Virus record (IMG/VR): IMGVR_UViG_2162886007_000119
Span: 1-20,335 of that record
Strand: one strand, 5' to 3'
Source of the DNA: a virus
DNA: 20,335 bases
Each line of letters begins with the position of its first letter. The stretch's first letter is position 1. The position numbers were made by a program, and so were the translations under genes. Positions 1 through 20,335 of this stretch are shown here, piece after piece. The notes under the pieces are model-generated. The model was not told the DNA's origin. It did no database searches and saw nothing but the letters and a program-made list of their open reading frames with translations.

Positions 1-53
1 GCAGGCGACTCATAATCGCTTGGTCGCTGGTTCAAGTCCAGCAGGGGCCACCA
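1..53 (+). tRNA. ileX/ileY-like: tRNA-Ile2 (CAU), 3' part only; 5' part lies outside the window
   Basis: The visible part covers the anticodon loop CTCATAA (anticodon CAT), variable region, T-arm (CTGG-TTCAAGT-CCAG), acceptor strand AGGGGCC, discriminator A and encoded CCA (51..53). It matches my recollection of the enterobacterial isoleucine tRNA that carries lysidine at the CAU anticodon and reads AUA codons. Elongator Met tRNA also has CAU but has a different T-arm and acceptor stem. The 5' half lies left of base 1. The gene's 3' end has been restored by phage DNA at integration. Confidence 0.88.
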
Positions 54-417: not shown

Positions 418-484
418 AACTGGCTCCGCAAATTCACTAATAGTGAATTTATAATACCCATAAAATCACTAAATGGGTATTGTT
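418..484 (-). promoter_or_regulatory. ogr promoter and operator region (pB-like)
   Basis: Two inverted repeats lie here: AAATTCACT/AGTGAATTT (430..438 with 442..450) and AATACCCAT/ATGGGTATT (453..461 with 473..481). On the minus strand TATTAT or TATAAA lies between them as a possible -10. The -35 is weak. The ATACCCATTT motif (minus strand, 480..471) also occurs in the cI/cox control region. In phage 186, CI directly represses pB, so these repeats are good candidates for CI sites. The outer hairpin could also act as a weak terminator after D. Confidence 0.55.
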
Positions 485-5071: not shown

Positions 5072-5590
5072 TTACAGGCCAATCGCCTTACGGTGTTCGG
5101 CCAGACGGTCTACACCGTCGACCTTCAGCACCATGTTGACGATGTCAATTTCAATGACTTCTTTTCCGTCAATTGTCAGCTGGTAGTAAGCACAATCAGT
5201 TGTCATTTTCGTTGTACCGCTTTCGCCCTGCTTGTTCTCACCGCAGTCGTACTCTTTATGACGACCTCGCATCACCACCTCGACGGCGGAAATTGCACCG
5301 GTGTCATCGCGCTGATAGGAGCCAGTAAAACGCAGCGGTACGCTGTCTGCACCAGGGGATGCATACTGCGCCCACAGTGCGACATCCGGCAGACCACCGA
5401 GCGTCCATTCAAGGGACAGCGCATCATCATCAAGACCCATATCAATGGATACCGAACCCGGCATCCCGCCGCCGCGGTATTTCTCCAGCTTGCGGGTCAG
5501 CTTCGGTAAAGTGACGGATTCAACGACGCCCATGTAGCTCAGGCCATCGTTAAACATGTTCAAATATTTTAATTTACGTGGTAACGCCAT
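5072..5590 (-). CDS. FII: Major tail tube protein gpFII
   Basis: At 172 residues this has the length of P2 FII. The start MALPRKLKYLNMFNDG and the segments TLPKLTRKLEKYRGGGMPG and RGRHKEYDCG-NKQGE are diagnostic of the P2 tube family. Hexamers of this protein stack to form the inner tube that is driven into the target envelope when the sheath contracts. It lies 12 bases after FI and shares its promoter. A hairpin follows it. Confidence 0.96.
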   Translation of the reverse strand: MALPRKLKYLNMFNDGLSYMGVVESVTLPKLTRKLEKYRGGGMPGSVSIDMGLDDDALSLEWTLGGLPDVALWAQYASPGADSVPLRFTGSYQRDDTGAISAVEVVMRGRHKEYDCGENKQGESGTTKMTTDCAYYQLTIDGKEVIEIDIVNMVLKVDGVDRLAEHRKAIGL

Positions 5591-5602: not shown

Positions 5603-6796
5603 TTAGCCGTTGACCGAATCTGACAGATTCGCCAGATAGGTATCAGTGATGCGCTGGCGCAGGGTCAGGTTTTCCAGCGGTGGGACGGGGGTATAGTCGT
5701 AATCGATATACAGTTTGCCCGCTTTAAGCGTCGCAACATCGTTGGACTCAGGGTCGTACCAGCAGGAGCCATCGACGATATAACCATTACTTTTCAGCTC
5801 ACGGAACTTGGCATTAATGCCCGCCACGATGTCGCGAATAAGGGTTGGGGTAATCGGTTTATCCATCGCCCACGCATGTGCTTCCGCCATGGTGTCGGCC
5901 AGTACCTGCGCGGTACGGGTGTAGTTTTCAAACAGGAAAAGAGGATCATCCGCGCAGGTGCGGTTACCCCAGAATTTGAAACCATCATTGCGGATCAGCG
6001 TGGTCACACCAGCCTGATTAAGCAGGTTGGCATCGGTCGCCGGTTCCTGCAAATCCCAGGAAACTGAGGCGCTAACACCGGTGACGCCATTCACGCCGAC
6101 GTTTGACAGGGTTTTATGCCAGCCGGTTGTCTGGTCGATTTTGGCACGCAGGCCCAGCGCGCGCGCCGTCGCCCATGCGGTATCTGTTGCGTTTGTCGTA
6201 GTGTCCCACGCCAGAAAATCGGGGAAGATCACCATCAGCTCACGCTGGCTGAAATTCTTGCGATAGTCGATGGCCTCGGAAATGGTTTTACAGTCCCACG
6301 CACTGACATAGCCAAAGGCGCGCAGGCTCTGACAGGTAGCGGCAAGCGCAGTCGCTACTTCCTGCGAATCCAGCCCCGGCACGCCAAGAATGCGCGGCTT
6401 AACGCCGGTGACAGTCTGCGCCGTCAACAGCGCTTTCAGGCCGGTGTATTTGCCGTTTTCGTCCGTGGTACCAATGATGTTGGAAATCGTTTGTTTCTGA
6501 GCCGCGTCGGGGGCCTCAGGGTCTTCGACACCTTCGGCCACACGTACAACCACAATGACCGGTTTGCACTGGTCAGCGATCGCCTGTAGTGAAGATGATA
6601 GTGTTCCCTGTTTGCCGGCTTTACTAATAGCGCTTTGCACATTAGTAATCAGCACAGGTTCATTAAGAGGGAAAACCGTCTCGTCAGCATCGCTGGCCGT
6701 ACAAACCATGCCGATGATGGCTGTTGAGACAGTGGAAATGGTGCGCACGCCGTCATTAATCTCGATGACCTGCACGCCGTGATGATAGTCGCTCAT
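5603..6796 (-). CDS. FI: Contractile tail sheath protein gpFI
   Basis: This 397-residue protein (P2, 396) is nearly colinear with P2 FI: MSDYHHGVQVIEINDGVRTI at the start, VVVRVAEG near residue 90, NIIGTTDENGKYTGLKALL, GWHKTLSNVGVNGVTG, and DYTPVPPLENLTLRQRITD near the end. The chosen ATG at 6796 has GGAG eight bases upstream and matches the P2 start. The frame stays open 31 codons further upstream, but that part overlaps the probable late promoter and is not family-like. A contractile sheath makes this an R-type, not an F-type, tail. Confidence 0.97.
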   Translation of the reverse strand: MSDYHHGVQVIEINDGVRTISTVSTAIIGMVCTASDADETVFPLNEPVLITNVQSAISKAGKQGTLSSSLQAIADQCKPVIVVVRVAEGVEDPEAPDAAQKQTISNIIGTTDENGKYTGLKALLTAQTVTGVKPRILGVPGLDSQEVATALAATCQSLRAFGYVSAWDCKTISEAIDYRKNFSQRELMVIFPDFLAWDTTTNATDTAWATARALGLRAKIDQTTGWHKTLSNVGVNGVTGVSASVSWDLQEPATDANLLNQAGVTTLIRNDGFKFWGNRTCADDPLFLFENYTRTAQVLADTMAEAHAWAMDKPITPTLIRDIVAGINAKFRELKSNGYIVDGSCWYDPESNDVATLKAGKLYIDYDYTPVPPLENLTLRQRITDTYLANLSDSVNG

Positions 6797-6819: not shown

Positions 6820-6885
6820 GTGAGACTATTGTCAACGTCATACCTTGCAAGCGCGACGGGAAGGGGTTGGAGCGGGGATTACACA
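6820..6885 (-). promoter_or_regulatory. Candidate Ogr-dependent late promoter for FI (PF)
   Basis: In P2 a late promoter precedes FI. Here the minus strand has TGT-N12-CCA (6885..6868), with its centre about 56 bases upstream of a plausible start point that follows GACAAT/CAATAG (6833..6826). The TGT half-site and spacing agree with P2 late promoters, where Ogr binds near -55. The second half-site is poor, so this rests mainly on position. Confidence 0.4.
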
Positions 6886-6890
6886 ACAAT

Positions 6891-6914: not shown

Positions 6915-7334
6915 TTATTCGGGGAGTTGCGGCCAGTCAACCGGGCGTGTCACTGATACAGTATCGATTTTTTCAACCTCATCGATGTAATCCAGAACAG
7001 CGAACAGTTTTGCTGCTTCGAGTTCAGTTAGTGTCCGACCTGCCTGCAGTTTGAGTTGAATCACACTCACTGACTGCATCGCATCACTGATGAGCATTTG
7101 CTTTTGCAACTCCGCCATTGCAGGGTAATCAGGCTCAATAGCTTTAAGTACTGGCATACCCTCTTCGTTCGGCACAATTGAATTACCTTTGGTCTGCCCT
7201 TCGATTAAATGCTGATACCAGCTTTGAGAGATGATTGACGCATCAGCAGGCCAGCTTCCTACCGCTTCATAAAGCCCTCTGTCGGACTCAAAGTAAAAGC
7301 CAGACAGTTCAGCACTATAATAAATACTATTCAT
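6915..7334 (-). CDS. G: Tail fibre assembly chaperone (gpG-type)
   Basis: This 139-residue protein directly follows the fibre gene H, with one base between them. The pattern is that of the phage tail-fibre assembly family: an N-terminal aromatic segment (IYYSAELSGFYFESD), then an acidic middle, then a C-terminal helix pair (LKLQAGRTLTELEAAKLFAVLDYIDEV) and the ending VDWPQLPE. Such proteins help trimerise or attach the fibre and co-vary with the fibre tip. It is much closer to the short lambda-Tfa-like type than to the longer P2 gpG (175). Confidence 0.87.
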   Translation of the reverse strand: MNSIYYSAELSGFYFESDRGLYEAVGSWPADASIISQSWYQHLIEGQTKGNSIVPNEEGMPVLKAIEPDYPAMAELQKQMLISDAMQSVSVIQLKLQAGRTLTELEAAKLFAVLDYIDEVEKIDTVSVTRPVDWPQLPE

Positions 7335-7335
7335 A

Positions 7336-9378
7336 TCAGTACCCTTTAGCCTGAATAATTACAGCGACTTGCCCGATGCTGCCGTAAGCCCTGTTTGCCA
7401 TGACAACACAGCCCGTATTTGTTTTTGAGATCAGTTGGAACATCCCTTCCGTATTGCTACTACCGTTGGCGTTTAATGTACTGACCGAAACTGATAAGCA
7501 GGCTGACGGAAACGCTTTAGGGAATGTGATCGTCTGCGTCGTCTCGCTGGTCATTGTCGCCCCCTGCACCCACTGCTCAATAATGCCGGTACTTCCGCAT
7601 TGCCACCATCCATTCGCCGCCTTTGATGCCGAGTTTGGTGCAGCAAACGAGCCTTTGGGCTGAAAACGTCCGTCGCTTTCGGCTTTGGTATACGCCCCCG
7701 TACGCGGCATATATCCCGCATCTGATTGTGCTTTTGTGTAGTAGCGAGCATCAAAGTTGCTGTAATCTGATGGCACAAATTGACCGGAGCCTGTGATACC
7801 ACCGTTCACAGCGAGACCGTGCCCCATGGTCACTTTGCCGGTTGAAATTTCGACATAAAATGGACGCAGGCTGTTATATGGTCCGAGCGGGTCGAGGGAG
7901 TTTGTCAACATCAGATAAAGTCTGTTGCCGTCGTTTCGCCAGAATGTTCCGTAATTCCCATAGGCAATTCGGTAACTGTTTGCGCTATCACTCATTAACT
8001 CAGATCGAAATCTAGCCCGAGCTGGTGTAAGACTGAATTCAGTAATGGCATCCGTATTCCCGGTTGCGATTCTGTACTCTTGTCCCTGAACCGTCTCATG
8101 CCAGATGGTATCACCCGTTCCGCCACGCATTTTTCGAAGATAGTTTTTACCTCCGGTAGGCCCACCTGAAAGTGATGAAAAATTGTAGGTTGCCGAGGGA
8201 ATTCCATCCTGATTAAGCGTTCCAGTCATGCTATCACCAGCTTTTGCCACTTTACTGGTGTCAGGGTTTTTATCAGTGAAAACATACTGATAGTCTTTAC
8301 TACCCGTCGCGATCGCCCCATCCCATCGAATAGCGACTTTCCCTTTGGGATCGGATGGAATAATAAGGTGACGGCTTTGTTTTACCGCACCACCATCCTG
8401 ATAAAGCGTGAAGGTATAGGCGTAAGGCCCACCACTCACGGCGTGCGTCCAGAAACCGGAAGGCAAATCCGTCGGGATATTGTCATAACTGTTACTCGCT
8501 ACAGCTGGCGTTCGGGGTGCTACCCCACCTAACCCCATCCAGCCAGTCACCGGTACTCTCCCGGCAGTCGTGTCTATCATTGAGGTGACAACATCAGCTT
8601 TTGCCGCCGTTCCCAGACTCCTTTTAACACCGGCCAGTTCATCATTGACGGTTTTCACCGCTTTCGGTGTCGCGGCGAGCGACTCAGACACACTGTCGGT
8701 CGCGCTACTGAGCTGGACAATCCCCTTCTGCGCCGTGGTCGCGTCCTGAGCCGTATACTTCGCGCTGGCAAAGTCATAGACTGCTTTAACCGCTTTCGGT
8801 GTGGCTGCAAGCGTCTCAGACGTGCTGTCGGTCGCACTGCTTAACTGCGTGAAGCCTTTTTCTTTCAGCGTGGCGTCAGGGTGGCGACGTGATTGCTCAT
8901 GCTCTGCGAGCCTGTCGTCGACGTAATCCTGCGTTGCCATCACAAGCGTAGTATCGATGGACAGCTCTACCGTCTCGATATCGCTCACCATGATTACCAT
9001 CCGCAGCGTCTGCGCGCGCCCTGACCCTTCCGCCAGCTCGGGCTTGTAGCTTTCTGCCATATTGCCTACCGCAATCAGCGTGCCGGTGTCATCGTAAAGC
9101 CCCATTTCACGCAGCCAAAAACCGCCGGTCTCTGGCGGAATTACCAGCTCCGCGACGACATAGTTTTTGTGCTTTTTATCCTGGCTGATTTTATTCAGCG
9201 CATGACGCCAGACCTCATTGACCAGTTTTGTCTGGCTGGCGTTTGGCTCGGGCAGCGTACCGCCACCATCCCCGACGGCCATCGCCACAAAATTGACTTT
9301 CTTCCCGTTCGGGACGCTCGCCGCCGCCAGCTTTTCAGCACCGGCTTTGGTGATAACGGTTTTATATTTTACTGTCAT
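7336..9378 (-). CDS. H: Tail fibre protein (gpH)
   Basis: This 680-residue protein (P2 H, 669) is the receptor-binding fibre. Residues 1 to about 155 are the conserved P2 attachment domain (TVKYKTVITKAGAEKLAAA, then GGFWLREMGLYDD and LVMATQDYVDDRLAEH). Two phage fibre repeats lie at residues 174 to 200 and 218 to 244. The middle is variable. The C-terminal 100 residues (NGWWQCGSTGIIEQW, then ITFPKAFPSACLSV and GQVAVIIQAKGY) are of the gp53/gp37-like tip type found in many enteric phages. The tip sets the host or killing range. No invertase or second fibre cassette is present. Confidence 0.94.
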   Translation of the reverse strand: MTVKYKTVITKAGAEKLAAASVPNGKKVNFVAMAVGDGGGTLPEPNASQTKLVNEVWRHALNKISQDKKHKNYVVAELVIPPETGGFWLREMGLYDDTGTLIAVGNMAESYKPELAEGSGRAQTLRMVIMVSDIETVELSIDTTLVMATQDYVDDRLAEHEQSRRHPDATLKEKGFTQLSSATDSTSETLAATPKAVKAVYDFASAKYTAQDATTAQKGIVQLSSATDSVSESLAATPKAVKTVNDELAGVKRSLGTAAKADVVTSMIDTTAGRVPVTGWMGLGGVAPRTPAVASNSYDNIPTDLPSGFWTHAVSGGPYAYTFTLYQDGGAVKQSRHLIIPSDPKGKVAIRWDGAIATGSKDYQYVFTDKNPDTSKVAKAGDSMTGTLNQDGIPSATYNFSSLSGGPTGGKNYLRKMRGGTGDTIWHETVQGQEYRIATGNTDAITEFSLTPARARFRSELMSDSANSYRIAYGNYGTFWRNDGNRLYLMLTNSLDPLGPYNSLRPFYVEISTGKVTMGHGLAVNGGITGSGQFVPSDYSNFDARYYTKAQSDAGYMPRTGAYTKAESDGRFQPKGSFAAPNSASKAANGWWQCGSTGIIEQWVQGATMTSETTQTITFPKAFPSACLSVSVSTLNANGSSNTEGMFQLISKTNTGCVVMANRAYGSIGQVAVIIQAKGY
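8647..8859 (-). repeat. Two fibre repeats within H
   Basis: Two 27-residue units (8779..8859 and 8647..8727) share KG--QLSSATDS-SE-LAATPKAVK-V, with a period of 44 residues (132 bases). They are the usual shaft repeat of P2-like fibres and could serve as recombination points for exchanging fibre tips. Confidence 0.8.
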
Positions 9379-9389
9379 TGTGCTCTCAC

Positions 9390-9920
9390 TTATCCGGGGT
9401 AAACCGTGGTGATATCGCCGTCATAGTTCAGGGCGCCGTAATACAGATGCCCCGGAATATCCTGAATAATATTCAGACCAATAAGATGACGGCTGGCTGG
9501 TTTTGCATCGGCAATCAGCCTTTCCATTTCGTAATACATTTCCTCGGTGATGCCGGTCTCTAACACGCCGATATCGAGGCGGAATGTGCCGGGCGGGTCG
9601 TTCGTTTCCCACCATTCCGTCACGTTAATCAGATACCCGAGCGGCTCGACAACACGGCGCACCGCACCAATCGTCCCTTTGTGCGCATGGATAAACCACG
9701 CCGCACGGATCACCTCGCGTTTGGTTTCTTCCGGCCAGCTCTCATCCCAGCGGTCGACAGAAAACGCCCAGGCAAGCCACGGCAGCAGATTTGCCGGGCA
9801 GGTATCGGGACTCCAGAGACGGCGCAGGGGGATCGGCGTATTTTCGATATCTGCACAGGCGCGTGCCGCCGCCACCTCAAGCGGCGAGGAGCCGACCGGC
9901 AACAGGCGGGCGTCACTCAT
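9390..9920 (-). CDS. I: Baseplate protein gpI
   Basis: From the ATG at 9920 this is 176 residues, the P2 length. The start MSDARLLPVGSSPLEVAAA, the segments TCPANLLPWLAWAFSVDRWD and KGTIGAVRRVVEPLGYLINV, and the end DGDITTVYPG are P2-like throughout. It forms the baseplate wedge with W and J. An in-frame ATG lies one codon upstream, but the family start favours 9920. It overlaps J by eight bases. Confidence 0.95.
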   Translation of the reverse strand: MSDARLLPVGSSPLEVAAARACADIENTPIPLRRLWSPDTCPANLLPWLAWAFSVDRWDESWPEETKREVIRAAWFIHAHKGTIGAVRRVVEPLGYLINVTEWWETNDPPGTFRLDIGVLETGITEEMYYEMERLIADAKPASRHLIGLNIIQDIPGHLYYGALNYDGDITTVYPG

Positions 9921-10821
9921 CATTGCCCCCGATGGTTACGCTATATTCACTGCACCAGGAAGCCTGCGTACTATCGAGTACGATGTCAGCCAACGGTGCG
10001 GCCAGCTCAACACGTTGCACCCCCTCAACGTGAAGGGCGGCATAAATAGCCGATTTACGGATATCACGCCCGAGACGGTGCTGGGCGCTGATATAACTCT
10101 TAAGCTTCGCCTTTGCTGCACTGAGCACCGGCTCGCTTTCAGGGCCTGGATAAAGAAATAGTGAGGCGTCGACTTTATAGTCAATAATATTTGCCGATTG
10201 CACTGTGACGCGATCGGCGACAGGCCTTACGTCCTCATCATTGAGAGCATTTCGGATGACGGCGAGCAGTTCTTCTGAGGCCACGCCATTATTTTCGCGA
10301 GACAATACCGAAATGGTCACGTTCGCAGGCTCGGGGCTAATAACAGAAATATCCGCAACCCTGCCGTCAGCACTGCGGCCATGAAATTGATATGCACCGG
10401 TTGAGCCAGCCACACTCATTCCCTCAAAGGCTTGCTGGATACGCAGGCGATAATCGGTATCAGCTTCCATCACCGCAGGCGTGGGCGGTAGCGAGGACTC
10501 ATCTCCTGGGGTGATGACAAGACGTGTGACGTTATAATTTGCACCAATATTATCGAGATCATTTCCGGCGGCGTAGGCCAACATGACCGCACGCGCCGCT
10601 TCATTAACATGCTGACGCCAGATGACTTCCCGGTAAGCATTTTCCTGCAACAGCTTCACAATGGGCTCAGATTCAAGCGTCAGAGTACGTGCAATAGCCT
10701 CCTGCTGATCTTCGGGATACAGGGAGATGAGGGTCGCCTTTCGTTCTGCAAGAAGGATTTCATAATTCAGCTCTTCCACGACATCGGGGGCGGCGAGCTG
10801 GCTTAGATCTACAATAGCCAT
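9913..10821 (-). CDS. J: Baseplate wedge protein gpJ
   Basis: At 302 residues this equals P2 gpJ, a gp6-like baseplate_J family protein. Typical parts are MAIVDLSQLAAPDVVEELNYE at the N-terminus, the central FEGMSVAGSTGAYQFHGRSA and the C-terminal RLGRDIRKSAIYAALHVEGV-RVEL. Wedge proteins W, J and I surround the hub and trigger sheath contraction. It is intact, lies five bases after W and overlaps I. Confidence 0.95.
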   Translation of the reverse strand: MAIVDLSQLAAPDVVEELNYEILLAERKATLISLYPEDQQEAIARTLTLESEPIVKLLQENAYREVIWRQHVNEAARAVMLAYAAGNDLDNIGANYNVTRLVITPGDESSLPPTPAVMEADTDYRLRIQQAFEGMSVAGSTGAYQFHGRSADGRVADISVISPEPANVTISVLSRENNGVASEELLAVIRNALNDEDVRPVADRVTVQSANIIDYKVDASLFLYPGPESEPVLSAAKAKLKSYISAQHRLGRDIRKSAIYAALHVEGVQRVELAAPLADIVLDSTQASWCSEYSVTIGGNDE

Positions 10822-10826
10822 AACGT

Positions 10827-11177
10827 TTAACTCAGTGGAATGGTTAGGGAAAAAGGCTGGCCTGAAGTCGAGCGTGCGCCAGTAATATCGACAAACAGCG
10901 CTCCGTCATCGTTAGGGTGTTCAAAGATGATGGTCGAGAGACTCACACGAGGCTCCCACTTCTGAATCGCGGAGTAGCACGCAGCCATAATCTGCAGGCG
11001 CAACGCCGGGGTATGCGGCTGGTCAATCAATGCTGACAACAAGGATCCGTACTCACGTCGCATGACGCGTGAGCCAACCGGCGTGACCAGAATGTCGCGC
11101 ACGCTTTGCCTGATATGGTCGGCCTCAGAAATACTGAGTCCGGTTTGGCTGTTCATTCCAAGATAGCGCACTGTCAT
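10827..11177 (-). CDS. W: Baseplate wedge protein gpW (gp25-like)
   Basis: This 116-residue protein (P2 W, 115) has the gp25/lysozyme-like wedge pattern: MNSQTGLSISEADHIRQSVR, then ILVTPVGSRVMRREYGS, with the EPR motif (KWEPRV) near residue 75 that is universal in contractile injection systems. The start overlaps the V stop as ATGA (11177..11174), so the two are coupled. Confidence 0.95.
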   Translation of the reverse strand: MTVRYLGMNSQTGLSISEADHIRQSVRDILVTPVGSRVMRREYGSLLSALIDQPHTPALRLQIMAACYSAIQKWEPRVSLSTIIFEHPNDDGALFVDITGARSTSGQPFSLTIPLS

Positions 11178-11815
11178 TTGGTCTCCTTCGTCCAGCTCCC
11201 GCCGCTCTGCACATTGCCGTGTGCATGGTCATCCACCTGCACGCCGTTGGAGGTAAATTTCCCGCCGGTGTGCTCGATGTCTCCTCTCATCGTCCCGCCC
11301 TTCTGCACTTCGAGTGAGCCGGTAATCAGCTTGTTGGTACAGACCACCTCGGGTGTATCGAGGGTGATGCGGGTTTCAGCTTTAACCAGCACAACAGGGA
11401 CGCTGGCCGTGATGGACTCGCTAGCCGTGATGTTGGCGGTTGTGATCCCGGAGACAGTAAGCGCCCCATTTTCTGGTTCGTACTCAATCATTGCCCCATC
11501 AGGAAATGAGACGTGAAACGCATCAGGAGAAGCAGAGGGGGCAGGATGGTCATCCGAGAAAATACCCGGTAGCACAAAGGCGGTGTCGAGCTCGCCGCCA
11601 ATGGCAAGAACCAGTACCTGCTCGCCAACGGAAGGCGCCCACCACACCCGCGCGCGGCCAGCACGACAGGTCAGCCAATTGAGCCACGTAGTTTTCATCC
11701 CTCCGGTCTGGACGCGACAGAGCCCCTCCTGAAGAGAGACATCTGTTACTACGCCGATGCGGATAAGATTACGGATTGCACGAGCGATACCGTGGATTGA
11801 AGTTAGCGTATTCAT
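11174..11815 (-). CDS. V: Baseplate spike protein gpV
   Basis: This 213-residue protein (P2 V, 211) is the membrane-piercing spike. The N-terminal OB-fold part contains CRVQTGGMKTTWLNWLT and WWAPSVGEQVLVLAIGGELD. The C-terminal beta-helix carries TLDTPEVVCTNKLITGSLEV and KGGTMRGDIEHTGG. The C-terminal DDHAHGN holds an HxH motif like that binding iron at the P2 spike tip. No Shine-Dalgarno sequence is seen before this ATG. The frame is open upstream, but no better start is visible, and the P2 product starts with the same MNTL. It heads the V-W-J-I-H-G operon. Confidence 0.94.
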   Translation of the reverse strand: MNTLTSIHGIARAIRNLIRIGVVTDVSLQEGLCRVQTGGMKTTWLNWLTCRAGRARVWWAPSVGEQVLVLAIGGELDTAFVLPGIFSDDHPAPSASPDAFHVSFPDGAMIEYEPENGALTVSGITTANITASESITASVPVVLVKAETRITLDTPEVVCTNKLITGSLEVQKGGTMRGDIEHTGGKFTSNGVQVDDHAHGNVQSGGSWTKETK

Positions 11816-12048
11816 GAGGAGAGAATGCCGAGGGTTCAGAGCAGCAGCAATGAGGCTAAGTTTTCTGCTGGATGAAACAACAATTTGCGACCGCAGGGCA
11901 TGATAATTTACAGGCGTAAAACAACACCCTGAGCGCTAAACACGCTATCGCCGAGAAAAGACAATCCTCTAAATATAAATCCAGGTCATTAAGTTCATTT
12001 CAGAACCCATACGGTATCGTTTTTACTCAGACTTCTATCACCTGCAAT
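11816..12048 (-). other. Gap in place of gene S; candidate V promoter
   Basis: P2 and 186 have the tail completion gene S (150 residues in P2) between R and V. Here 233 bases separate the two genes and no frame longer than about 30 codons with S-like sequence is seen. The minus strand has TGT-N12-ATA (11963..11946) centred about 61 bases before the likely start point of a TATCAT -10 (11905..11900), a possible Ogr-dependent V promoter. The promoter call is tentative. Confidence 0.5.
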
Positions 12049-12516
12049 TTACTCACTCCACTGGCTGACGAGTTCCCCATTAATGTACAACTCTTTAGGC
12101 CGAGTAACAGGTGCAGGTAACGGTGGTTCAGGAGAATAACTGGCGCGTAATGTGCCATTTTCCTCTGTGACAAGAATCCGCTCGGTCAATTGCAGACTGA
12201 AGCTAATATCTTTACTTTCATCATCATTCATGACTATCTGAAAGAGATAGCCATTTTTACGCCCTTCATCCAGCGTGAAAATATCAGGTTGATTTTCCCG
12301 AAGCCAAGCTAACAGCGGCACGAAAAGTTGATTGGATTCGCCGACAAAATTTTTAACAAGACCTTTCAGGGTATATTTCTTTTCAAATGATAATGAGACG
12401 GAGAGACGTGCATCAATATTTCCGTTCTCAACAGAGAAGCGCAACATTTCTGGGTGAGCACTTAGCTGTGGAATAGCGTCAATTAATGCCTGACGTAAGC
12501 TATTTGGTTTATTCAT
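12049..12516 (-). CDS. R: Tail completion protein gpR
   Basis: At 155 residues this has the length of P2 gpR. The segments LRQALIDAIP, SLSFEKKYTL, VPLLAWLRENQPDIFTLDEGRKNGY, LTERILV and the C-terminal VTRPKELYINGELVSQW are P2-like. In P2, R and S are both needed to complete the tail for joining to heads. Here R survives without S. It overlaps the lysC end by eight bases. Confidence 0.93.
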   Translation of the reverse strand: MNKPNSLRQALIDAIPQLSAHPEMLRFSVENGNIDARLSVSLSFEKKYTLKGLVKNFVGESNQLFVPLLAWLRENQPDIFTLDEGRKNGYLFQIVMNDDESKDISFSLQLTERILVTEENGTLRASYSPEPPLPAPVTRPKELYINGELVSQWSE

Positions 12517-12769
12517 TACTTTTACCCTGACACTCTTTGATGGTTTCGATTTGCAGCGCGCAGGTAATCAATGCCTGCTCAAGCCTGCGTATATCTGCAC
12601 TGAGATCGCCATTAGTCATCGGTTCGCTGCCTGGCATTGGGCATGAGCTCACTCTCGGGCAGGTGTTGTAGACAGCGTGCAGCGGAGGCACAGCCGGTGC
12701 GGGTGTGCAAGCGGCGCACCACATCAGGCAGACGGTCACGGTACCAACGGCGTAAAGTTTCATTTTCAT
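12509..12769 (-). CDS. lysC: Outer-membrane spanin lipoprotein (Rz1-like, LysC)
   Basis: This 86-residue protein starts inside lysB in another frame, the usual nested arrangement of spanin pairs. It has a signal peptide with a basic start (MKMKLYAVG) and a lipobox-like CAAC ending at Cys21, followed by a proline-rich stretch (TPAPAVPP). Further cysteines could crosslink dimers. The lipobox is not canonical, since Cys occupies -3. o-Spanins link to the i-spanin and fuse the two membranes in the last step of lysis. Confidence 0.85.
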   Translation of the reverse strand: MKMKLYAVGTVTVCLMWCAACTPAPAVPPLHAVYNTCPRVSSCPMPGSEPMTNGDLSADIRRLEQALITCALQIETIKECQGKSNE

Positions 12770-13037
12770 TCATCAACCTTGTAATAGTCTCCTCACGCTT
12801 TGCCCGCTGCTCACTCAACATTGAAAGTTCGTCACGCAGCCTGACCTGCGCGTTTTCATTATCTCGGGCTACTCGCAGTGAGACAGAGAGTTGATTTTTC
12901 AGGTTTGCAATAATGTTTTTTTGCTCGCCAGCAACTTGATTTACTTTTTCGAATGATCGAGAAAGGTTCTGATTTTCGCGGCTCAACCACAGTACTGAGG
13001 CAAGCAGCCCGGCCAGTATAAGTAGCAGGACTTTCAT
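12612..13037 (-). CDS. lysB: Inner-membrane spanin (Rz-like, LysB)
   Basis: From ATG 13037 this is 141 residues, as I recall the length of P2 LysB. It has one N-terminal membrane segment (LLLILAGLLASVLWL), then a long charged coiled coil rich in Glu, Asn, Gln and Arg (residues 20 to 100), then RRWYRDRLPDVVRRLHTR, typical of the family. The start overlaps the endolysin stop as ATGA. An in-frame ATG six codons upstream lies inside the endolysin gene and lacks support. The partner lysC is embedded in its 3' half. Confidence 0.9.
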   Translation of the reverse strand: MKVLLLILAGLLASVLWLSRENQNLSRSFEKVNQVAGEQKNIIANLKNQLSVSLRVARDNENAQVRLRDELSMLSEQRAKREETITRLMNENETLRRWYRDRLPDVVRRLHTRTGCASAARCLQHLPESELMPNARQRTDD

Positions 13038-13543
13038 GGAATCCCTTTGATGCAATATGCTTTTTCCCGTATACGTCGATTCTCAAGACCAGTATTCCTG
13101 ATACCTTTCACAAATACCCAGCGCGGAAACTGATCGCATGCCTGCTGCCACTGCTGGCGCTGAACAAATGACATCAGCGTCGACCGGCATGCGGCTCCCG
13201 CGCCAACGTTAAAGGCAAAACTCACCAACGAGTCATATATACGAGGGGGTATTTCGGCTGACACACACGCAGAAAGTCTCTTCTCGACATTGCGCACATC
13301 AGCAACAAGATTTACAGCCGCTTCGCGTTCACTGATATCTTCTTTTGGCACAACGCCAGCCGTATGGCCAATACCTGATGTCCACACACCCGCACTGCAC
13401 TGATAAGGTCTCAGCCGACAGCCCTCAAGATCGGCAATCAGCGCTAATCCCTCAGGAGACGTTTTCAGCAAATGAAAGTCCGGCAGCAGGGCTGCGAACA
13501 TCAGCACGCTGGCTACACTGCAGCGCTTAATGATTGAATTCAC
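13034..13543 (-). CDS. K: SAR endolysin of the P1 Lyz type (GH24 muramidase)
   Basis: From GTG 13543 (AAGG seven to eight bases upstream) this is 169 residues. A weakly hydrophobic N-terminal segment (CSVASVLMFAALLP) acts as a signal-arrest-release anchor. The catalytic triad is E40-x8-C49-x5-T55 within EGCRLRPYQCSAGVWT, the GH24 pattern. C8 in the anchor, C42 and C49 match P1 Lyz C13, C44 and C51: there, a C44-C51 disulphide keeps the membrane-tethered enzyme off, and C13 swaps in on release. ATG at 13558 is another possible start. P2 itself has a K of a different type. The gene overlaps Y by 17 bases. Confidence 0.88.
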   Translation of the reverse strand: MNSIIKRCSVASVLMFAALLPDFHLLKTSPEGLALIADLEGCRLRPYQCSAGVWTSGIGHTAGVVPKEDISEREAAVNLVADVRNVEKRLSACVSAEIPPRIYDSLVSFAFNVGAGAACRSTLMSFVQRQQWQQACDQFPRWVFVKGIRNTGLENRRIREKAYCIKGIP

Positions 13544-13748
13544 GAATCGCCTTCTCATCAAACCCGAGTGAGGTCAGATAACGGTATGTTTTGCGCTTAA
13601 ACCAGTAATTCGTCAGCGCCGTAAAAATGGCACACATCCCCCCCACGTAGAGTGCTACTTTTTCAGGTGACATTGCCCCAAAATAGGCGAGGCAAACGGC
13701 TAACCAGTAAGCTACAAACGTGGTGATTTTTTCCAGACTTAGTCCCAT
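13527..13748 (-). CDS. Y: Holin of the HP1 / phage_holin_2_3 type (gpY position)
   Basis: This 73-residue protein has two predicted membrane helices (TTFVAYWLAVCLAYFGA and VALYVGGMCAIFTALTNYWF) and a basic C-terminus. It is shorter than P2 Y (93) and looks like the small HP1-family holins of many enteric P2-like prophages. A SAR endolysin needs only membrane depolarisation, so a pinholin-like role is possible but not shown. Its start overlaps the X end. No lysA antiholin gene is seen. Confidence 0.82.
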   Translation of the reverse strand: MGLSLEKITTFVAYWLAVCLAYFGAMSPEKVALYVGGMCAIFTALTNYWFKRKTYRYLTSLGFDEKAIREFNH

Positions 13749-13942
13749 AAATGCACAGCCTCAGCTTTTGCTGCGCTATCAACCTCAGGAATTTCAATCG
13801 CCTTGCCGTGTGGCACAATAACGCCTGAAGCAGCAAGACCGGGATTTGCTTCTAACACTGTTTCAACGACGCCCTCTGTACGCCCGTAATAACGCGCACA
13901 AATAGCATCAAGCGTGTCCCCCTGCATTGCGTAGACCTTCAT
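13739..13942 (-). CDS. X: Tail protein gpX (LysM-like)
   Basis: From ATG 13942 this is 67 residues, the P2 gpX length. The sequence MKVYAMQGDTLDAICARYYG is P2-like, followed by RTEGVVETVLEANPG and a VPHG-AIEIPE segment, a short LysM fold. The start is preceded by GGGAG; a TTG one codon upstream is not preferred. In P2 the preceding gene is L (head completion). Here no L and no other head gene precedes it, so X is the first gene of the late block. Confidence 0.94.
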   Translation of the reverse strand: MKVYAMQGDTLDAICARYYGRTEGVVETVLEANPGLAASGVIVPHGKAIEIPEVDSAAKAEAVHLWD

Positions 13943-13974
13943 CAAATGCTCCCAACAAATGGATTTTCGGATCT

Positions 13975-14037
13975 AAGATAGTTTCCAGAGCAGGTGTTAA
14001 ATCGGCTACTGCTTACAGACGTGCAATCACGCGCACA
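13975..14037 (-). promoter_or_regulatory. Candidate Ogr-dependent late promoter upstream of X
   Basis: The minus strand has the palindrome TGTGC-N8-GCAC (14037..14021), which also fits TGT-N12-AC. Its centre is about 60 bases upstream of a start point near 13968 placed by TATCTT (13980..13975) as -10. P2 late promoters carry a TGT/ACA dyad bound by Ogr near -55. If real, it drives X through R without the head genes. Confidence 0.42.
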
Positions 14038-14140
14038 ACATTCCTTTATCGCTGGAAGCCCTCATATAAATGACAAAATACATAATGCCCGCCACTGATG
14101 AGACAATGAGCAGCGTAAATAAAATCAGGTGAACGTAGAG
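14027..14140 (-). pseudogene. Possible remnant of a small membrane protein
   Basis: A 37-codon open frame encodes LYVHLILFTLLIVSSVAGI followed by MYFVIYMRASSDKG, which looks like one membrane helix with a basic end. There is no start codon before the helix (TAG precedes it). A -1 shift near 14038 would extend it by about 35 codons of a cysteine-containing frame up to the X start. It may be a decayed gene at the deletion junction or chance. Confidence 0.22.
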
Positions 14141-14275
14141 CTACAGAAACGGAACGCTACAACTCTGGAGTGGAAAAATAAGGTTGGGGGCGTGCTAACA
14201 TATACTGCATTAACTATGTTCGTATCAGCAGCCCCTGTTTAGGGATATAACCTTTGATGGGCTGAGTATTAATAG

Positions 14276-14719
14276 CTATCGCCAGCTCTCATCTTCCCAG
14301 ACTTCCTGAAGAATATTGTCCAGGGCTTCACGGTCGGACTCTTTATCAAAGCCCCTCAATTCTACACCTGTCACAGAACCCTTTTTAACGGTGACATGCG
14401 TTGATGGGAACAAAGAATGAATTCGTCGGGTCAGCTCATATTGAAAGGCATCAACCATCGTCTGTCCTATTTTTTGTTCTTGGTCTAAGGCGATATTGAC
14501 TTTCACGTAGCCTCCCCTCTTTTTTAATCTTTCTGGTGCAGGCGTTGCTGAAAAGACAACTGTAAAGGCATTGCCTTTCATCAAGTTCCCTCTCGCAATC
14601 TCAGCGATTAAATTCAGGGCAATTTCACGATCTCTTTCCTGGCAAGTTCCTTCAGCTGTCAGACGGGCAATCATCTCGACTCGCTCAATCATAACTTGCT
14701 CGTTTAACTCTCTGTCCAC
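14276..14719 (-). CDS. tum: Tum-like antirepressor with a DinI-like domain
   Basis: From GTG 14719 (GGAGG four bases upstream) this is 147 residues, about the length of 186 Tum. The N-terminal 45 residues (DRELNEQVMIERVEMIARL then AEGTCQERDREIALNLIAEIARG) are Tum-like. The C-terminal 78 form a DinI-like domain (VKVNIALDQEQKI, ELTRRIHSLFP, GVELRGFD, DREALDNILQEVWEDESWR). In 186, Tum is made under SOS control and inactivates CI, inducing the prophage. The frame continues upstream to 14761, but that start would lie across the LexA box. It stands beside A where 186 also has it, normally next to cos. Confidence 0.9.
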   Translation of the reverse strand: MDRELNEQVMIERVEMIARLTAEGTCQERDREIALNLIAEIARGNLMKGNAFTVVFSATPAPERLKKRGGYVKVNIALDQEQKIGQTMVDAFQYELTRRIHSLFPSTHVTVKKGSVTGVELRGFDKESDREALDNILQEVWEDESWR

Positions 14720-14737
14720 ACAACCTCCACCATGAGT

Positions 14738-14757
14738 AACTGTATATACATACAGTA
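14738..14757 (-). promoter_or_regulatory. LexA box upstream of tum
   Basis: AACTGTATATACATACAGTA differs little from the consensus TACTGTATATATATACAGTA. The CTG-N10-CAG core (14740..14755) is intact and the arms are palindromic. It lies 18 bases before the tum GTG, as in the 186 p95 arrangement. DNA damage should derepress tum. Confidence 0.93.
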
Positions 14758-14895
14758 GCACGTATTACTAAAAGCTGGGAAGAAAAAAATCAGAGGTTGC
14801 ATATGTATCTTCATGATATCGATGGATATTAATGGGATGAACGCAACCTTCAACGGCTAAAAACACTTCGAATTTCACTTAATTCGGGTTCAAAC

Positions 14896-16956
14896 TCAGC
14901 CTTCAGACGAAGCGTTCACTGGCGTTGAAAGGCTTTGCAAGTCGTCTGGCCAACGCGCTTGATCAACCTGTATCTCACGCCCGCAATAAATATCAATATC
15001 CTGCTCTGGCAGCCTGAGTTGAGCCTTCAATAGCCGCCTTTTACGTAGACCTAAGGGCTTTGATAAAGCGAATACCGGAGGATCGCTTTCACTCTCCGTA
15101 CAGTTAATGACAGAACTCCAAGAGGGCGCAGGAGCGCCCTTAACGTCAACGGCCAAATCAACGGCCCGCTTCGGCACAATTTTCCATTGTGTAAGCCGGG
15201 TTAAAATTGGAGTACCTGCACCGACGGCGGAATCGTACACGCCACGAATACAAACGATTTCCTCGCCATACTGGTTAAATTCGGTGCGAGGCTCATACAG
15301 CGTGCGCACCTGCAAATCATCGCGACGGACAAACGGCCCACCCTGCGCATTAACGTAACCAGCCCAGTCACCAGCGTCGGCGGTATCGTGGACGGCGGCA
15401 AACTCAACGCTCAGGCCGTGCGCGGTCTCGGTATCCGCGAGACGACGCAACTCACGGTAGACCGTCACTGGCGCACCGCCGATAAATTGAAACTGACGAA
15501 TGTGCCAGCGCGCCGCCCATGCAGAAACGGAAGAAGCGGTCTCTTTCAATAGCTCACCGCTTTCGTCATCGGTTTCACCCTCAAGAGCATAACCGTCGAT
15601 ATTTTTGGAAATGTATTTAGCGACATAGCCGGTCGCGCTGCCCTTTGCCGGATCAATGACCTCAGCATGAAAGCGTGCCTTTTTAGCTTTATCACTTCTC
15701 AGTTCCTGGCAGTCTTCCTCCCACGCATAATCGCGAATGATGAGGCGCACGCGCTCTGCATCTTCTGGCAGCATGAACATAAGCATGTGCCAGTGTGGCG
15801 TACCATCATGATGAGGCTCAGCAACACGGATACCGAAAATACGGATGTCTTCCCGGTGCAGCCTGGCGCGAATACGCGCCCACAGGCCGGTGAGATAGCT
15901 CTGCGTGTCCGACGGGCTGGCTCCGTTCCATTTGCTGTTACGGTAGCCCGCTTTTGTTGTTGCGTGATATTTAGACGGCGCAGTCAGGGTGTAAAACTCC
16001 CCGACATAACCAAGCTCATTGCAGATATTTTCAAACCCACGGATGCGGGTCATTAGTTCGCAGCGGCGTATCGCAGGGTTAGCGACCGAACCGTCGTATT
16101 TTTCAATCAGGCTGATGCGGTTGCCGTCTTCGTCTTCAAGATCCAGCCCCTTGAGAAATTCACGCGTGCGGCGCTTCTGCTCACGCCAGTCGGTCACGCA
16201 GTTTTTACTCGCGTAGGCGTGCCGTTTTTTGCTGACATTGCCAACGGCAATTTGCAGGTGTTCGCGCCATGCAGTCGCAATACGGCGCAAACGACCACGC
16301 CACCACACTTCACTGAACATGCGCATTACTGCCGGTGCAATGACATCCTCCCCGATATATTTCTTTGTGACTTTCTCCCAATGCGGCGGAGTAATGTTGA
16401 ATTGCAGGGATATAAAACCGGCACGCATGTACCAGGTGTACAGCGTTTTAAGCTCGCTAAACCCAATGTCGTCAATGTTAGCCAGTTCAGCGCGAATGAA
16501 ATTAGCAATATCAGCGGCCAGCAGGTCAATATCGGCGCGCGACATGTCCGGGAGGCGGTTATATCTGGCGACCATATTGACCATGCGTGATGCCAGATAT
16601 TGCATAATCTGGGTATCAAAATGACCACCAAAAACAGCAGCTGATACATTGCGATTAATACCCGTACACTCGTATTTTTTTGCGACCCGCTCAACGCGTG
16701 GCAATGCCTTTTTGCAAAAGCTGATTAAAAAAGCGTTGGCTCGTTGGCTGCCCTTATTTTTTTCCAGCAGCGCAGCAGTGCGGTAAATATCAAAACGCAC
16801 GCACTCCGGCTGGAGAGAAAGCGCCTTTCTCGCATGCAGCAAAGCCGCGAACATACGGTCGCGGCGATACTGTTGCTCATAGGTCAGATATGGGCTGGCT
16901 ATTGCAGGTCGCGCTGCGTTCCATGGGTAAGCGAGCTGAATAGCCAAGTCATCCAA
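14896..16956 (-). CDS. A: Replication initiation endonuclease gpA (HUH, rolling circle)
   Basis: This 686-residue protein (186 A, about 694; P2 A, 761) nicks the phage origin and starts rolling-circle replication. The HUH motif lies at EPHHDGTPHWH (380 to 390; H388 and H390). The two catalytic tyrosines are Y444 and Y448 in YVAKYISKNIDG, equal to Y450 and Y454 of P2 gpA. Upstream, NPAIRRCELM and TLTAPSKYH match the P2 core. The TTG start at 16956 overlaps the end of the zinc-finger gene by eight bases, suggesting coupling. The gene is intact although the element has no packaging genes. The P2 origin lies within A, and a similar site is seen here. Confidence 0.95.
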   Translation of the reverse strand: MDDLAIQLAYPWNAARPAIASPYLTYEQQYRRDRMFAALLHARKALSLQPECVRFDIYRTAALLEKNKGSQRANAFLISFCKKALPRVERVAKKYECTGINRNVSAAVFGGHFDTQIMQYLASRMVNMVARYNRLPDMSRADIDLLAADIANFIRAELANIDDIGFSELKTLYTWYMRAGFISLQFNITPPHWEKVTKKYIGEDVIAPAVMRMFSEVWWRGRLRRIATAWREHLQIAVGNVSKKRHAYASKNCVTDWREQKRRTREFLKGLDLEDEDGNRISLIEKYDGSVANPAIRRCELMTRIRGFENICNELGYVGEFYTLTAPSKYHATTKAGYRNSKWNGASPSDTQSYLTGLWARIRARLHREDIRIFGIRVAEPHHDGTPHWHMLMFMLPEDAERVRLIIRDYAWEEDCQELRSDKAKKARFHAEVIDPAKGSATGYVAKYISKNIDGYALEGETDDESGELLKETASSVSAWAARWHIRQFQFIGGAPVTVYRELRRLADTETAHGLSVEFAAVHDTADAGDWAGYVNAQGGPFVRRDDLQVRTLYEPRTEFNQYGEEIVCIRGVYDSAVGAGTPILTRLTQWKIVPKRAVDLAVDVKGAPAPSWSSVINCTESESDPPVFALSKPLGLRKRRLLKAQLRLPEQDIDIYCGREIQVDQARWPDDLQSLSTPVNASSEG
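15105..15140 (-). other. ori: Candidate rolling-circle origin within A
   Basis: The minus strand reads GCGCCCTCTTGGAGTTCTGT, then CATTAAC. It resembles the P2 origin core as I recall it (GCGCCTCGGAGTCCTGTCA), with a few changes. Just before it a perfect 7-bp stem AGGGCGC/GCGCCCT (15123..15129 with 15134..15140) with a 4-base loop could expose the nick site. The position in the C-terminal third of A also fits P2. Confidence 0.55.
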
Positions 16957-17918: not shown

Positions 17919-18182
17919 TCATGCACCGATGATGAGCTGAAAACGGGAGTGCCCTAAAGCTTTACGCAATTGCTCTTCTTTCCAGCGAGCGTAATAGATG
18001 CGTATCGGGCCACCGGCTTTCTTGCAGCCCTTGCGGATGGTGCGAGGTTCAATAGGTACACAAGGGTTGTCACCGGTTGTCCAGCGATAAGCGGTGCGTT
18101 CAGATACCCCCTCAAGCACTGCGAACTGTTGCAGAGTAACGATTGGAGCAGGCACTTTGATGATTGCGATTTCAGAAGCCAT
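17919..18182 (-). CDS. cox: Cox/Apl-type regulator and excisionase
   Basis: From ATG 18182 this is 87 residues. An HTH lies at about 13 to 33 (TLQQFAVLEGVSERTAYRW), followed by a basic stretch (RTIRKGCKKAGGPIRIYYAR) and a helical tail. It is the first gene of the lytic operon, divergent from cI, where P2 has Cox and 186 has Apl. Those proteins repress the lysogenic promoter and direct excision with Int. Assignment rests on position and the HTH, as sequence similarity between Cox proteins is low. Confidence 0.8.
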   Translation of the reverse strand: MASEIAIIKVPAPIVTLQQFAVLEGVSERTAYRWTTGDNPCVPIEPRTIRKGCKKAGGPIRIYYARWKEEQLRKALGHSRFQLIIGA

Positions 18183-18315
18183 GTTGCATGATTCCCATTT
18201 GGATAATGTTTGCAATCAATGGTCTCTGTTTGCCAACCTCAGCCATTGATTTTCCTGAATTAGCAACAATACTAATACCCATTTGAGCATTAGTAAACAC
18301 CCAAAGGAGTATATA
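18183..18315. promoter_or_regulatory. Divergent lytic/lysogenic switch region (pR-pL) with operator repeats
   Basis: The 133 bases between cox and cI hold an inverted repeat AATCAATGG/CCATTGATT (18214..18222 with 18243..18251), a direct repeat ATTCCCATTTG (18191..18201) and ATACCCATTTG (18275..18285), and ACTAAT/ATTAGT flanking the latter (18271..18276, 18289..18294). A possible cI promoter is TTGATT (18246..18251), 16 bases, AATACT. The repeats are candidates for CI and Cox sites. The cox promoter could not be placed with confidence. Confidence 0.6.
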
Positions 18316-18891
18316 TTGATCCTTGATTCTCAAGTGAACAATGATGAGTTACTGGACCGCATCTGCCAGGTATATGGATTTAATCAAAAAATCCAGCTCG
18401 CAAGGCATTTCAACATTGCGGCCAGTTCCCTTCAAAATCGCTACTCTCGTGGCACAATTTCGTACGATTTCGCCGTACAGTGCGTTCTTGAAACGGGGGC
18501 AAGCTTGCGATGGTTACTTACCGGGGAAGGTTTGCAATATGATGGAAAGCCCGCCGCAACGGATCCCAAAGAGATCGCATCATTCACTTTAAGTGATGGT
18601 GAACTCGTTAAAAATTCCACTTTAAGTATTGATGCTAATTTTTTTAGTAAAGCGCTCAAAGACGGTATCGCTGTTCGCACCGAAGGCAAACTGCACTTTA
18701 TTGAACAAGATGCGGCTCTGACTGACGGTCTCTGGCTAATTGATATTGAAGGAACCATCAATATCCGCGATTTGACTTTGCTTCCAGGTAAGAAGCTTCA
18801 TGTTGCGGGTGGAAATGTGCCTTTTGAATGCGAAGCCCGCGAGATAAAAACGCTTGGTCGTGTGGTAGGTATATACAGCGAGATTAAGTAA
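18316..18891 (+). CDS. cI: CI repressor, 186 type
   Basis: From TTG 18316 (AAGGAG six bases upstream) this is 191 residues (186 CI, 192). Alignment by eye with 186 CI runs end to end: LLDRICQVYGFNQKIQLARHF, RGTISYDFAVQCVLETGASL, RWLLTGEGL, then LTDGLWLIDIEGTINIRDLT, LPGKKLHVAGGNVPFEC and IKTLGRVVGIYSE. The N-terminal HTH binds operators; the C-terminal domain makes the dimers and the 186 wheel of seven dimers. It lacks LexA-like self-cleavage, and induction goes through Tum. An earlier ATG at 18283 has no ribosome site. Its stop overlaps int. Confidence 0.93.
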   Translation: MILDSQVNNDELLDRICQVYGFNQKIQLARHFNIAASSLQNRYSRGTISYDFAVQCVLETGASLRWLLTGEGLQYDGKPAATDPKEIASFTLSDGELVKNSTLSIDANFFSKALKDGIAVRTEGKLHFIEQDAALTDGLWLIDIEGTINIRDLTLLPGKKLHVAGGNVPFECEAREIKTLGRVVGIYSEIK

Positions 18892-19925
18892 TGACTGTCC
18901 GTAAAAACCCTGCTGGAGGCTGGATTTGCGAGCTTTATCCGAATGGGGCAAAAGGCAAACGTATAAGAAAAAAATTCGCCACCAAAGGCGAGGCACTCGC
19001 CTTCGAACAGTACACCGTACAAAATCCCTGGCAGGAAGAGAAAGAAGACAGACGCACGCTAAAAGAGCTAATTGATGCGTGGTATAGCGCACACGGCATA
19101 ACTCTCAAAGATGGACTAAAACGTCAGTTAGCAATGCACCACGCCTTTGAGTGTATGGGTGAACCACGCGCCCGTGATTTTGATGCGCAGATGTTTTCCC
19201 GCTACCGGGAAAAGCGGTTGAAAGGTGAATATGCCCGTTCAAACAGAGTGAAAGAGGTATCACCCCGCACACTCAATCTTGAGCTGGCCTACTTTCGAGC
19301 AGTATTCAATGAGCTGAACCGCCTAGGAGAATGGAAGGGTGAAAATCCGCTGAAAAATATGCGCCCTTTCCGCACCGAAGAGATGGAAATGGCCTGGCTA
19401 ACTCATGATCAAATCTCGCTGCTACTCGGAGAATGTAAACGGCATGACCACCCTGATTTAGAATCTGTGGTAAGGATTTGCCTCGCCACAGGCGCCCGGT
19501 GGTCTGAGGCTGAGGGCCTCAAAAAAAGCCAGCTCGCGAAATACAAAATAACCTACACCAACACGAAAGGCAGAAAAAACCGCACTGTCCCCATCAGCAA
19601 AGAGCTTTACGACTCCCTGCCCGATGAAAGAAAAGGTCGGTTGTTTAGTGAATGCTATGGCGCGTTCCGGTCTGCTTTAGAAAGAACAGGCATCGAACTA
19701 CCGGCAGGTCAACTTACCCATGTTTTGCGCCACACCTTCGCCAGCCATTTTATGATGAATGGCGGAAATATTCTGGTCTTGCAGCGTGTCCTCGGCCATA
19801 CCGACATCAAAATGACAATGCGATATGCGCACTTTGCTCCAGACCATTTAGAGGATGCCGTTAAGCTCAATCCTTTGGCGATGAGTGGCGATAAAGTGGC
19901 GGTCGAAATGGCGAATAATGGGTAA
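18891..19925 (+). CDS. int: Tyrosine recombinase integrase
   Basis: This 344-residue protein is of the P2/186 integrase family. The N-terminal arm-binding domain (VRKNPAGGWICELYPNG, KKFATKGEALAFE), the core-binding domain (PRTLNLELAYFRAVFNEL) and the catalytic domain are all present. Active residues: R203 (GARWSEAE), K226 (TKGRKNRTVPI), H277 and R280 (THVLRHTF), H303 (LGHTD), Y312 (MRYAHFAP). The ATG overlaps the cI stop (TAATGA), so cI and int form one lysogenic transcript as in 186. It reads toward attR, 75 bases away. It appears able to work. Confidence 0.96.
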   Translation: MTVRKNPAGGWICELYPNGAKGKRIRKKFATKGEALAFEQYTVQNPWQEEKEDRRTLKELIDAWYSAHGITLKDGLKRQLAMHHAFECMGEPRARDFDAQMFSRYREKRLKGEYARSNRVKEVSPRTLNLELAYFRAVFNELNRLGEWKGENPLKNMRPFRTEEMEMAWLTHDQISLLLGECKRHDHPDLESVVRICLATGARWSEAEGLKKSQLAKYKITYTNTKGRKNRTVPISKELYDSLPDERKGRLFSECYGAFRSALERTGIELPAGQLTHVLRHTFASHFMMNGGNILVLQRVLGHTDIKMTMRYAHFAPDHLEDAVKLNPLAMSGDKVAVEMANNG

Positions 19926-19999: not shown

Positions 20000-20046
20000 A
20001 CTCATAATCGCTTGGTCGCTGTTCATGCCCAGCAGGGGCCACCAAA
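20000..20046 (+). repeat. attR: attR, imperfect copy of the tRNA 3' end
   Basis: This repeats 8..55 with one base lost (TGG to TG) and two substitutions within the T-arm region; the outer parts, including the acceptor strand and CCA, are identical. These changes would spoil the T-arm, and since this copy is not used in a tRNA it can drift. It marks the right end of the element. Confidence 0.88.
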
Positions 20047-20050
20047 CATA

Positions 20051-20086
20051 AAGGGCTTACGCCAAAACGTAAGCCCTTAGTTTTTT
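20051..20086 (+). terminator. Strong rho-independent terminator beyond attR
   Basis: The arms AAGGGCTTACG (20051..20061) and CGTAAGCCCTT (20068..20078) pair perfectly over 11 bases, followed by AG and six T. It is probably the original chromosomal terminator of the tRNA gene, displaced by the prophage. Confidence 0.85.
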
Positions 20087-20116
20087 CAGGATTTCTGAAT
20101 CAGCGCCGTGGATAAC

Positions 20117-20335
20117 TCACACGAGCTCCCGGAGTTGCTCCTGCATATACGCAGAAAAGTATTCAGGGTTCTTGATAACGACGTGGTCAGTTGAGTTAAT
20201 TTTCTCAGCCCATCCGGCGACTTTTTTGGTGAAGTCCGGATCCCATCCCTCCTGGCTGCCGCGCGCCATCACATCAGCGGCGCTGGCTGGTGTACCCAAC
20301 TCTTTCAAATACTTGAATATTCCCTTCGCGGTACT
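20117..20335 (-). CDS. yoaC-like: YoaC-like (DUF1889) protein, C-terminal part; start outside window
   Basis: The frame is open to the right edge; the visible 72 residues begin STAKGIFKYLKELGTPASAA, and the protein ends with NPEYFSAYMQEQLRELV. This resembles Escherichia YoaC (DUF1889, about 99 residues, function unknown) as I recall it. A TTG at 20308 is not taken as the start because the family-like sequence continues upstream of it. This is chromosomal DNA, convergent with the tRNA terminator. The recognition is from memory. Confidence 0.6.
   Translation of the reverse strand, partial: STAKGIFKYLKELGTPASAADVMARGSQEGWDPDFTKKVAGWAEKINSTDHVVIKNPEYFSAYMQEQLRELV

Follow-up and report, generated by a model that had tools for sequence, protein, structure and literature searches.

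A headless 186-like element at a tRNA-Ile2 gene, predicted to represent an SOS-inducible R-type tailocin lineage of Enterobacter and Lelliottia

The closest described systems are phage-tail bacteriocins related to P2-type phages. BceTMilo, a P2/KL3-like R-type tailocin of Burkholderia cenocepacia that has been shown to kill, has a break between X and L and lost S, there with a moron, as its only tail gene, while it keeps R, the tail genes, Ogr, a CI-like repressor, int, and xis and is RecA-dependent, according to the part of its description that was available (PMC5411513). Xenorhabdicin derives from the P2-type remnant xnp1 of Xenorhabdus, which lacks capsid, portal, and terminase genes and has a P2-like tail, a CI repressor, and a gpA gene that responds to mitomycin C by induction, as given in the accessible part of that report (PMC8855722). 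The dickeyocin P2D1 of Dickeya dadantii is encoded by a 22-kb P2-like tail cluster without O, M, N, and L and forms killing contractile tails (PMC10719855), and carotovoricin of Pectobacterium occupies a locus conserved throughout the genus, with a conserved core and recombining tail fibres (PMC13195805). In a review, replication genes are listed among the functions missing from tailocins (PMC12090994). No report of an Enterobacter or Lelliottia tailocin was found in the open-access literature searched, kosakonicin being named only in a review.

The stretch of DNA analysed here, referred to as the window, is IMG/VR record IMGVR_UViG_2162886007_000119 and comprises 20,335 bases. Pfam and PHROG profiles together with tblastn show the gene order of a 186/P2-like prophage, running right to left on the minus strand, while int and CI are encoded on the opposite strand (plus). 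The element of about 20 kb is flanked at both ends by att repeats of tRNA-Ile2 (ileX). Its left boundary (8-53, minus strand) is the 46-bp 3' half of the tRNA gene and matches the 186 attP core at 100%; the right copy (20000-20044, minus strand) is degenerate (43/46 in comparison with the 186 att core), and the DNA past 20045 is host rather than element, containing the end of a DUF1889 gene (20046-20335; PF08986). The same element is found in Lelliottia nimipressuralis CCUG 25894, with most proteins 97-100% identical to those of the window; there, the left-att side adjoins a contig ending in the 5' half of tRNA-Ile2, followed by mug-rpoD-dnaG, and the contig on the opposite side matches the right flank of the window at 97.3%. 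Judging by these contig matches, the host of the window is Lelliottia-like and carries the element in ileX. E. coli was rejected as the host, given that coverage of the window by any E. coli genome stays below 80% and that the two best E. coli places are full prophages with head genes. In CCUG 25894 the element forms a contig of its own (contig 22), both ends of which lie inside the att core; this could reflect either an assembly interrupted at the repeat or a population in which excised and integrated forms are mixed. A further P2-like prophage, this one intact, is present elsewhere in that genome.

The contractile tail set of the window is complete by Pfam and PHROG assignment (sheath, tube, baseplate, spike, tape measure, and fibre; all on the minus strand). 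It extends from the spike gpV (11174-11815; PF18715/PF04717) through the baseplate wedge gpW (10827-11177; PF04965), the baseplate proteins gpJ (9913-10821; PF04865) and gpI (9390-9923; PF09684), the tail fibre gpH of 680 aa, with a conserved N-terminus and a variable C-terminus (7336-9378; PF12571/PF03406/PF21446/PF21882), and the fibre chaperone gpG (6915-7334; PF02413) to the contractile sheath gpFI (5603-6796; PF04984/PF17482), the true start of which is, by alignment with 186, probably at 6796 rather than at the TTG at 6889. It continues with the tail tube gpFII (5072-5590; PF04985), the tail chaperone gpE (4721-5014; PF10109), which has a T6 slippery site at about 4742-4747 and an open E' frame beyond it, both as in 186, the tape measure gpT of 815 aa (2129-4576; PF10145, phrog_28), the tail protein gpU (1651-2115; PF06995), and the baseplate hub gpD (485-1654; PF05954), and ends with the late-gene activator Ogr/B (217-417; PF04606, 2e-22). 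On the other side of V, likewise on the minus strand, lie the tail terminator gpR (12049-12516; PF06891, phrog_65), a lysis cassette consisting of the outer spanin LysC (12509-12769; PF23793), the inner spanin LysB (12612-13055; phrog_89), an endolysin in the position of P2 K (13034-13561; PF00959), and a holin (13527-13748; phrog_20, 7.5e-20), and gpX (13739-13945; PF05489). The tail genes between V and D were thus all found, these two and Ogr included, with open frames, and the tail and lysis genes are full length, as had been described.

The head end of such a phage is missing. Queries for Q, P, O, N, M, L, and S taken from 186, EtG, and an E. coli P2-like prophage gave no tblastn match in the window, leaving it without portal, terminases, scaffold, capsid, head completion, and gpS; nor was the 186 cos sequence found in it by a search that detects cos in an intact relative, which bears out the reported absence of the head genes and cos. 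The window therefore has none of the capsid, portal, terminase, and cos that a functional Eganvirus requires. Of the early/SOS regions of 186, CII, fil, Orf97, and the genes for the exonuclease and DUF5405 have no counterpart in the window either (17919-18891 region). The place of gpS is taken by the gap between R and V (11816-12048, minus strand; in relatives, also a cargo gene), which measures 90-236 bp and is devoid of S in 54/54 headless loci showing both genes (of 60), the sole S match among headless loci coming from an adjacent phage, whereas gpS is present in the full, head-bearing relatives. The lack of gpS had been held against a tailocin, an argument that fails: it is lineage-wide, PHROGs classes gpS as a tail completion/Neck1 connector (and gpL as a head-tail adaptor), and the proven tailocin BceTMilo has lost gpS too, so that the loss counts in favour. 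A separate 186-like element (G159:C33, locus L145, 5-20 kb) lacks Q-M and S, keeps most of L (132/168 aa), and has no tum and a different integrase; it is probably an independent head loss.

What remains between the DinI-like SOS antirepressor gene tum (14276-14761, minus strand; PF06183, phrog_189) and X is a gap of 330 bases, which confirms that X follows tum directly across a short gap. This gap retains a late promoter (13980-14039, minus strand; GTTGTG box at 14020-14039, GGAAACT at 13980-13986) corresponding to 186 pV, the driver of the capsid scaffold gene. The TGTTGTG...GGAAACT arrangement is kept in all 42 distinct tum-X gaps, and the copy in the window aligns with that in intact relatives; the deletion therefore set gene X directly behind a late promoter. 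A second, pJ-like late promoter with an Ogr/B box precedes FI (6868-6887, minus strand; GTTGTG...TCCA as at 186 pJ). The LexA box CTGTATGTATATACAG of the tum promoter (14740-14755, minus strand) matches the LexA site of 186 p95, and the CI repressor is encoded at 18283-18891 (plus strand; PF07022/PF16452). A palindrome upstream of ogr, AAATTCACTATTAGTGAATTT (430-450, minus strand), resembles the CI operator at 186 pB as a motif match. The SOS-linked parts, i.e. LexA box, tum, CI, and Ogr, are present, intact, and conserved in sequence, with the control itself being a prediction.

The junction is not peculiar to this copy. Among viral contigs scanned for tum, 44 have the same tum-X junction and 26 have 6-9 kb of head genes in between. 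Altogether, 60 headless loci share the junction, a count that leaves out L029, L038, L049, L052, L053, and L059, where the sequence merely ends after tum; the named genomes include Enterobacter cloacae, E. asburiae, E. mori, genomosp. O, and L. nimipressuralis. With at least 260 bits taken as the cut-off for gpR of the headless lineage (matches of 200-247 bits belong to elements with S), it occurs in 15/61 Enterobacter-group genomes, one per species, and S is absent from all examined carriers among those 15. Wherever the flank is readable the neighbour is mug-rpoD, as in E. cloacae, genomosp. O, E. asburiae (two), E. mori, and several further genomes; other genomes have another P2-like prophage adjacent to the element. 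In G437, G406, and G002 (loci L174, L180, and L144) such a prophage, with its own int, directly adjoins the headless element downstream of ogr, apparently as a tandem insertion at the same tRNA. An accident in a single strain or an assembly artefact was rejected because the junction is carried on complete chromosomes of several species; the comparison proposed for the tRNA-Ile2 site thus gave a junction common to many species.

In trees of V+W+J+FII and of FI+FII+V, the headless tails all fall into a single clade (support 1.0 and 0.997), the one sequence tagged FULL inside it being headless as well, with a tag that derives from a neighbouring prophage. The best explanation is that the head, packaging, and neck genes were lost once in an ancestor, and that the element has since been kept for its tail. 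A single history for the whole element was rejected, because in the window, L003, and L. nimipressuralis the A gene clusters with its counterparts in intact 186-like phages, among which CI is placed too, in disagreement with the tail trees, and L003 has tail proteins 98-100% identical to those of the window and a CI only 57% identical. In the Lelliottia clade, control modules have thus been exchanged with live phages, the tail module between them remaining stable. Strict vertical descent is only partly supported: the correlation with host dnaG distances is 0.88 for CI and 0.83 for A, weaker for tail genes, and absent for J and I.

Purifying selection on the tail genes, proposed as a check, was found. 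Pairwise NG86 estimates give median dN/dS of 0.03-0.32 for tail and lysis genes, not near 1 (0.03 for the tube gpFII), and of 0.10-0.14 for CI, tum, and ogr, and tail frames are intact in nearly all of 16 loci. The fibre diversifies: among 41 distinct fibres the first 150 aa are 91% identical and the last 200 aa 23%. Between the window (7336-9378) and the L. nimipressuralis copy (L140, 10640-12349), the first 318 aa of the fibre are 80% identical and the remainder is unrelated, the fibre chaperone is 35% identical, and J and I are 99-100% identical: the fibre has been swapped between two near-identical elements. In the same, otherwise near-identical L140 copy gpW is in two frames (8842-9188; 19 + 98 aa), possibly through a frameshift or a sequencing error, and genome G405 (L175/L176) has split or divergent W, J, and I, which may reflect damage to, or recombination within, the baseplate genes of its copy. 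Such tail-gene damage in some relatives (W in L. nimipressuralis, J/I in G405) counts against a tailocin.

The replication and integration genes behave differently from each other. In the window, the integrase (18891-19925, plus strand; PF00589) is intact and cox/apl (17919-18215, minus strand; phrog_575) is kept; 10/14 assessable genomes have no intact integrase, and cox in these amounts to about 20 residues or is missing. The rolling-circle replication initiator gpA (14896-16956, minus strand; PF05840, 6e-133) has an open frame in 15/15 genomes, with a dN/dS of 0.16 among int-less elements (pairwise NG86, extended frames). The preliminary description had cited int, cox, and A as kept and as speaking against a tailocin; that stands for A, which is truly kept and under selection, but most relatives show int and cox in decay. 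Within A, the replication origin core, aligned to the annotated 186 origin (15097-15120, minus strand), shows stronger codon conservation than any other part of the gene, with 6/6 degenerate invariant residues keeping their codon vs 14% elsewhere (binomial p 7e-6), although part of this constraint may predate the loss of the integrase. Late transcription in P2 is linked to replication, a possible reason to keep A, and the maintenance of gpA and origin despite the loss of int and cox suggests that a chromosome-locked locus still amplifies itself upon induction. With somewhat less than even confidence, the element can be pictured as a domesticated tailocin with a working rolling-circle replicon for gene dosage, in which gpA would nick its own origin and amplify the locus in place, giving high late-gene expression and particle yield in a doomed cell, while integrase, excisionase, cos, and head genes have been lost. 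The presence of an intact, conserved gpA and origin departs from the absence of nucleic-acid replication genes given for tailocins (PMC12090994); this absence is, however, no universal criterion, since xnp1 carries gpA too by the accessible part of its description (PMC8855722), and retention is not unique to this lineage.

Taken together, the window in all likelihood represents a new, 186-like lineage of SOS-inducible R-type tailocins, a prediction made from its genes, and the earlier tailocin reading is supported as such by the conserved junction, purifying selection, and intact LexA/tum/CI/Ogr. Roughly one in four of the sampled Enterobacter-group species carries this headless element at a single tRNA gene, with a tail that is complete and under selection, so that the production of phage-tail particles able to kill rival bacteria is very probable. 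In the proposed model, DNA damage would cause LexA to leave the tum promoter, Tum would inactivate CI, allowing Ogr to be made, and Ogr would activate the late promoters, among them the former scaffold-gene promoter in front of X and the promoter preceding the sheath gene. The locus may meanwhile be amplified by gpA from its own origin. Contractile tails would then assemble and be released by holin, endolysin, and spanins, and the fibre would bind a surface receptor, with the contracting particle killing the cell; induction, particle formation, killing, and amplification are all inferred steps. Int, cox, and att still present in the window copy count against this, as does the retention of gpA and its origin.

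Chance loss of the head genes from a prophage in ordinary decay is an unlikely reading, even though most relatives have a degraded integrase and cox, the right att is degenerate, and CII and other early genes are missing: the loss is one ancient event common to all headless relatives, tail frames persist with dN/dS well below 1, and decay is limited to functions that a tailocin does not need. A satellite that makes its own tails, borrows heads from an intact P2-like helper, and packages its own DNA is very improbable. It would fit the intact P2-like phages in the same genome or beside the element and the gpA, origin, and, in the window, int and cox that are kept, but cos, terminase, and the tail-to-head connectors gpL and gpS are gone, and most copies could not establish in a new host because they have lost the integrase. 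Among P4-like satellite features, neither cos nor an unassigned gene of the capsid-hijacking type was found among the annotated frames, and a satellite with cos was rejected as the 186 cos is not found in the window. Occupancy of ileX and CI repression as immunity against 186-like phages, with the tail incidental, would fit a CI that is under purifying selection and that the Lelliottia clade has exchanged with intact phages, but is hardly credible, leaving the stronger selection on sheath, tube, and baseplate and the fibre diversification unexplained, and other prophages still insert in tandem at the site.

The predicted tailocin would add a lineage for Enterobacter and Lelliottia with a fixed, PCR-testable site and dozens of natural fibre types, and its gpA and origin raise the question of whether chromosome-locked tailocins self-amplify before release. 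It shares with 186 and Erwinia phage EtG (Eganvirus) the gene order outside the deletion, the att core, LexA-tum, late promoter boxes, and gpA origin, and differs from them in that they have head genes, cos, gpS, and CII. Like carotovoricin, it combines a conserved locus and core with variable fibres, but carotovoricin is flanked by tolC and ybiB, shows invertase-driven fibre inversion in about half (PMC13195805), and has a sheath only distantly related to P2 types. P2D1 belongs to a different genus and was reported without a tape measure homologue (PMC10719855). With xnp1 the window shares a headless P2-like tail, CI, and gpA, a likeness of description rather than of sequence, and tum and an integration site are not described for xnp1 in the available part of that report (PMC8855722). 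It differs from BceTMilo in host and phage group and in its unrelated lysis genes, being 186-type, with a LexA-tum trigger and ileX, and in having tum and A with its origin, neither of which is described for BceTMilo in the part of its description at hand (PMC5411513). The X/L break and the loss of gpS are nevertheless common to both and make the window a second case of the BceTMilo pattern. The deletion in which head genes and gpS are gone and the promoter is kept thus recurs in a second phage group, and a rule for the conversion of P2-type phages to weapons therefore becomes testable.
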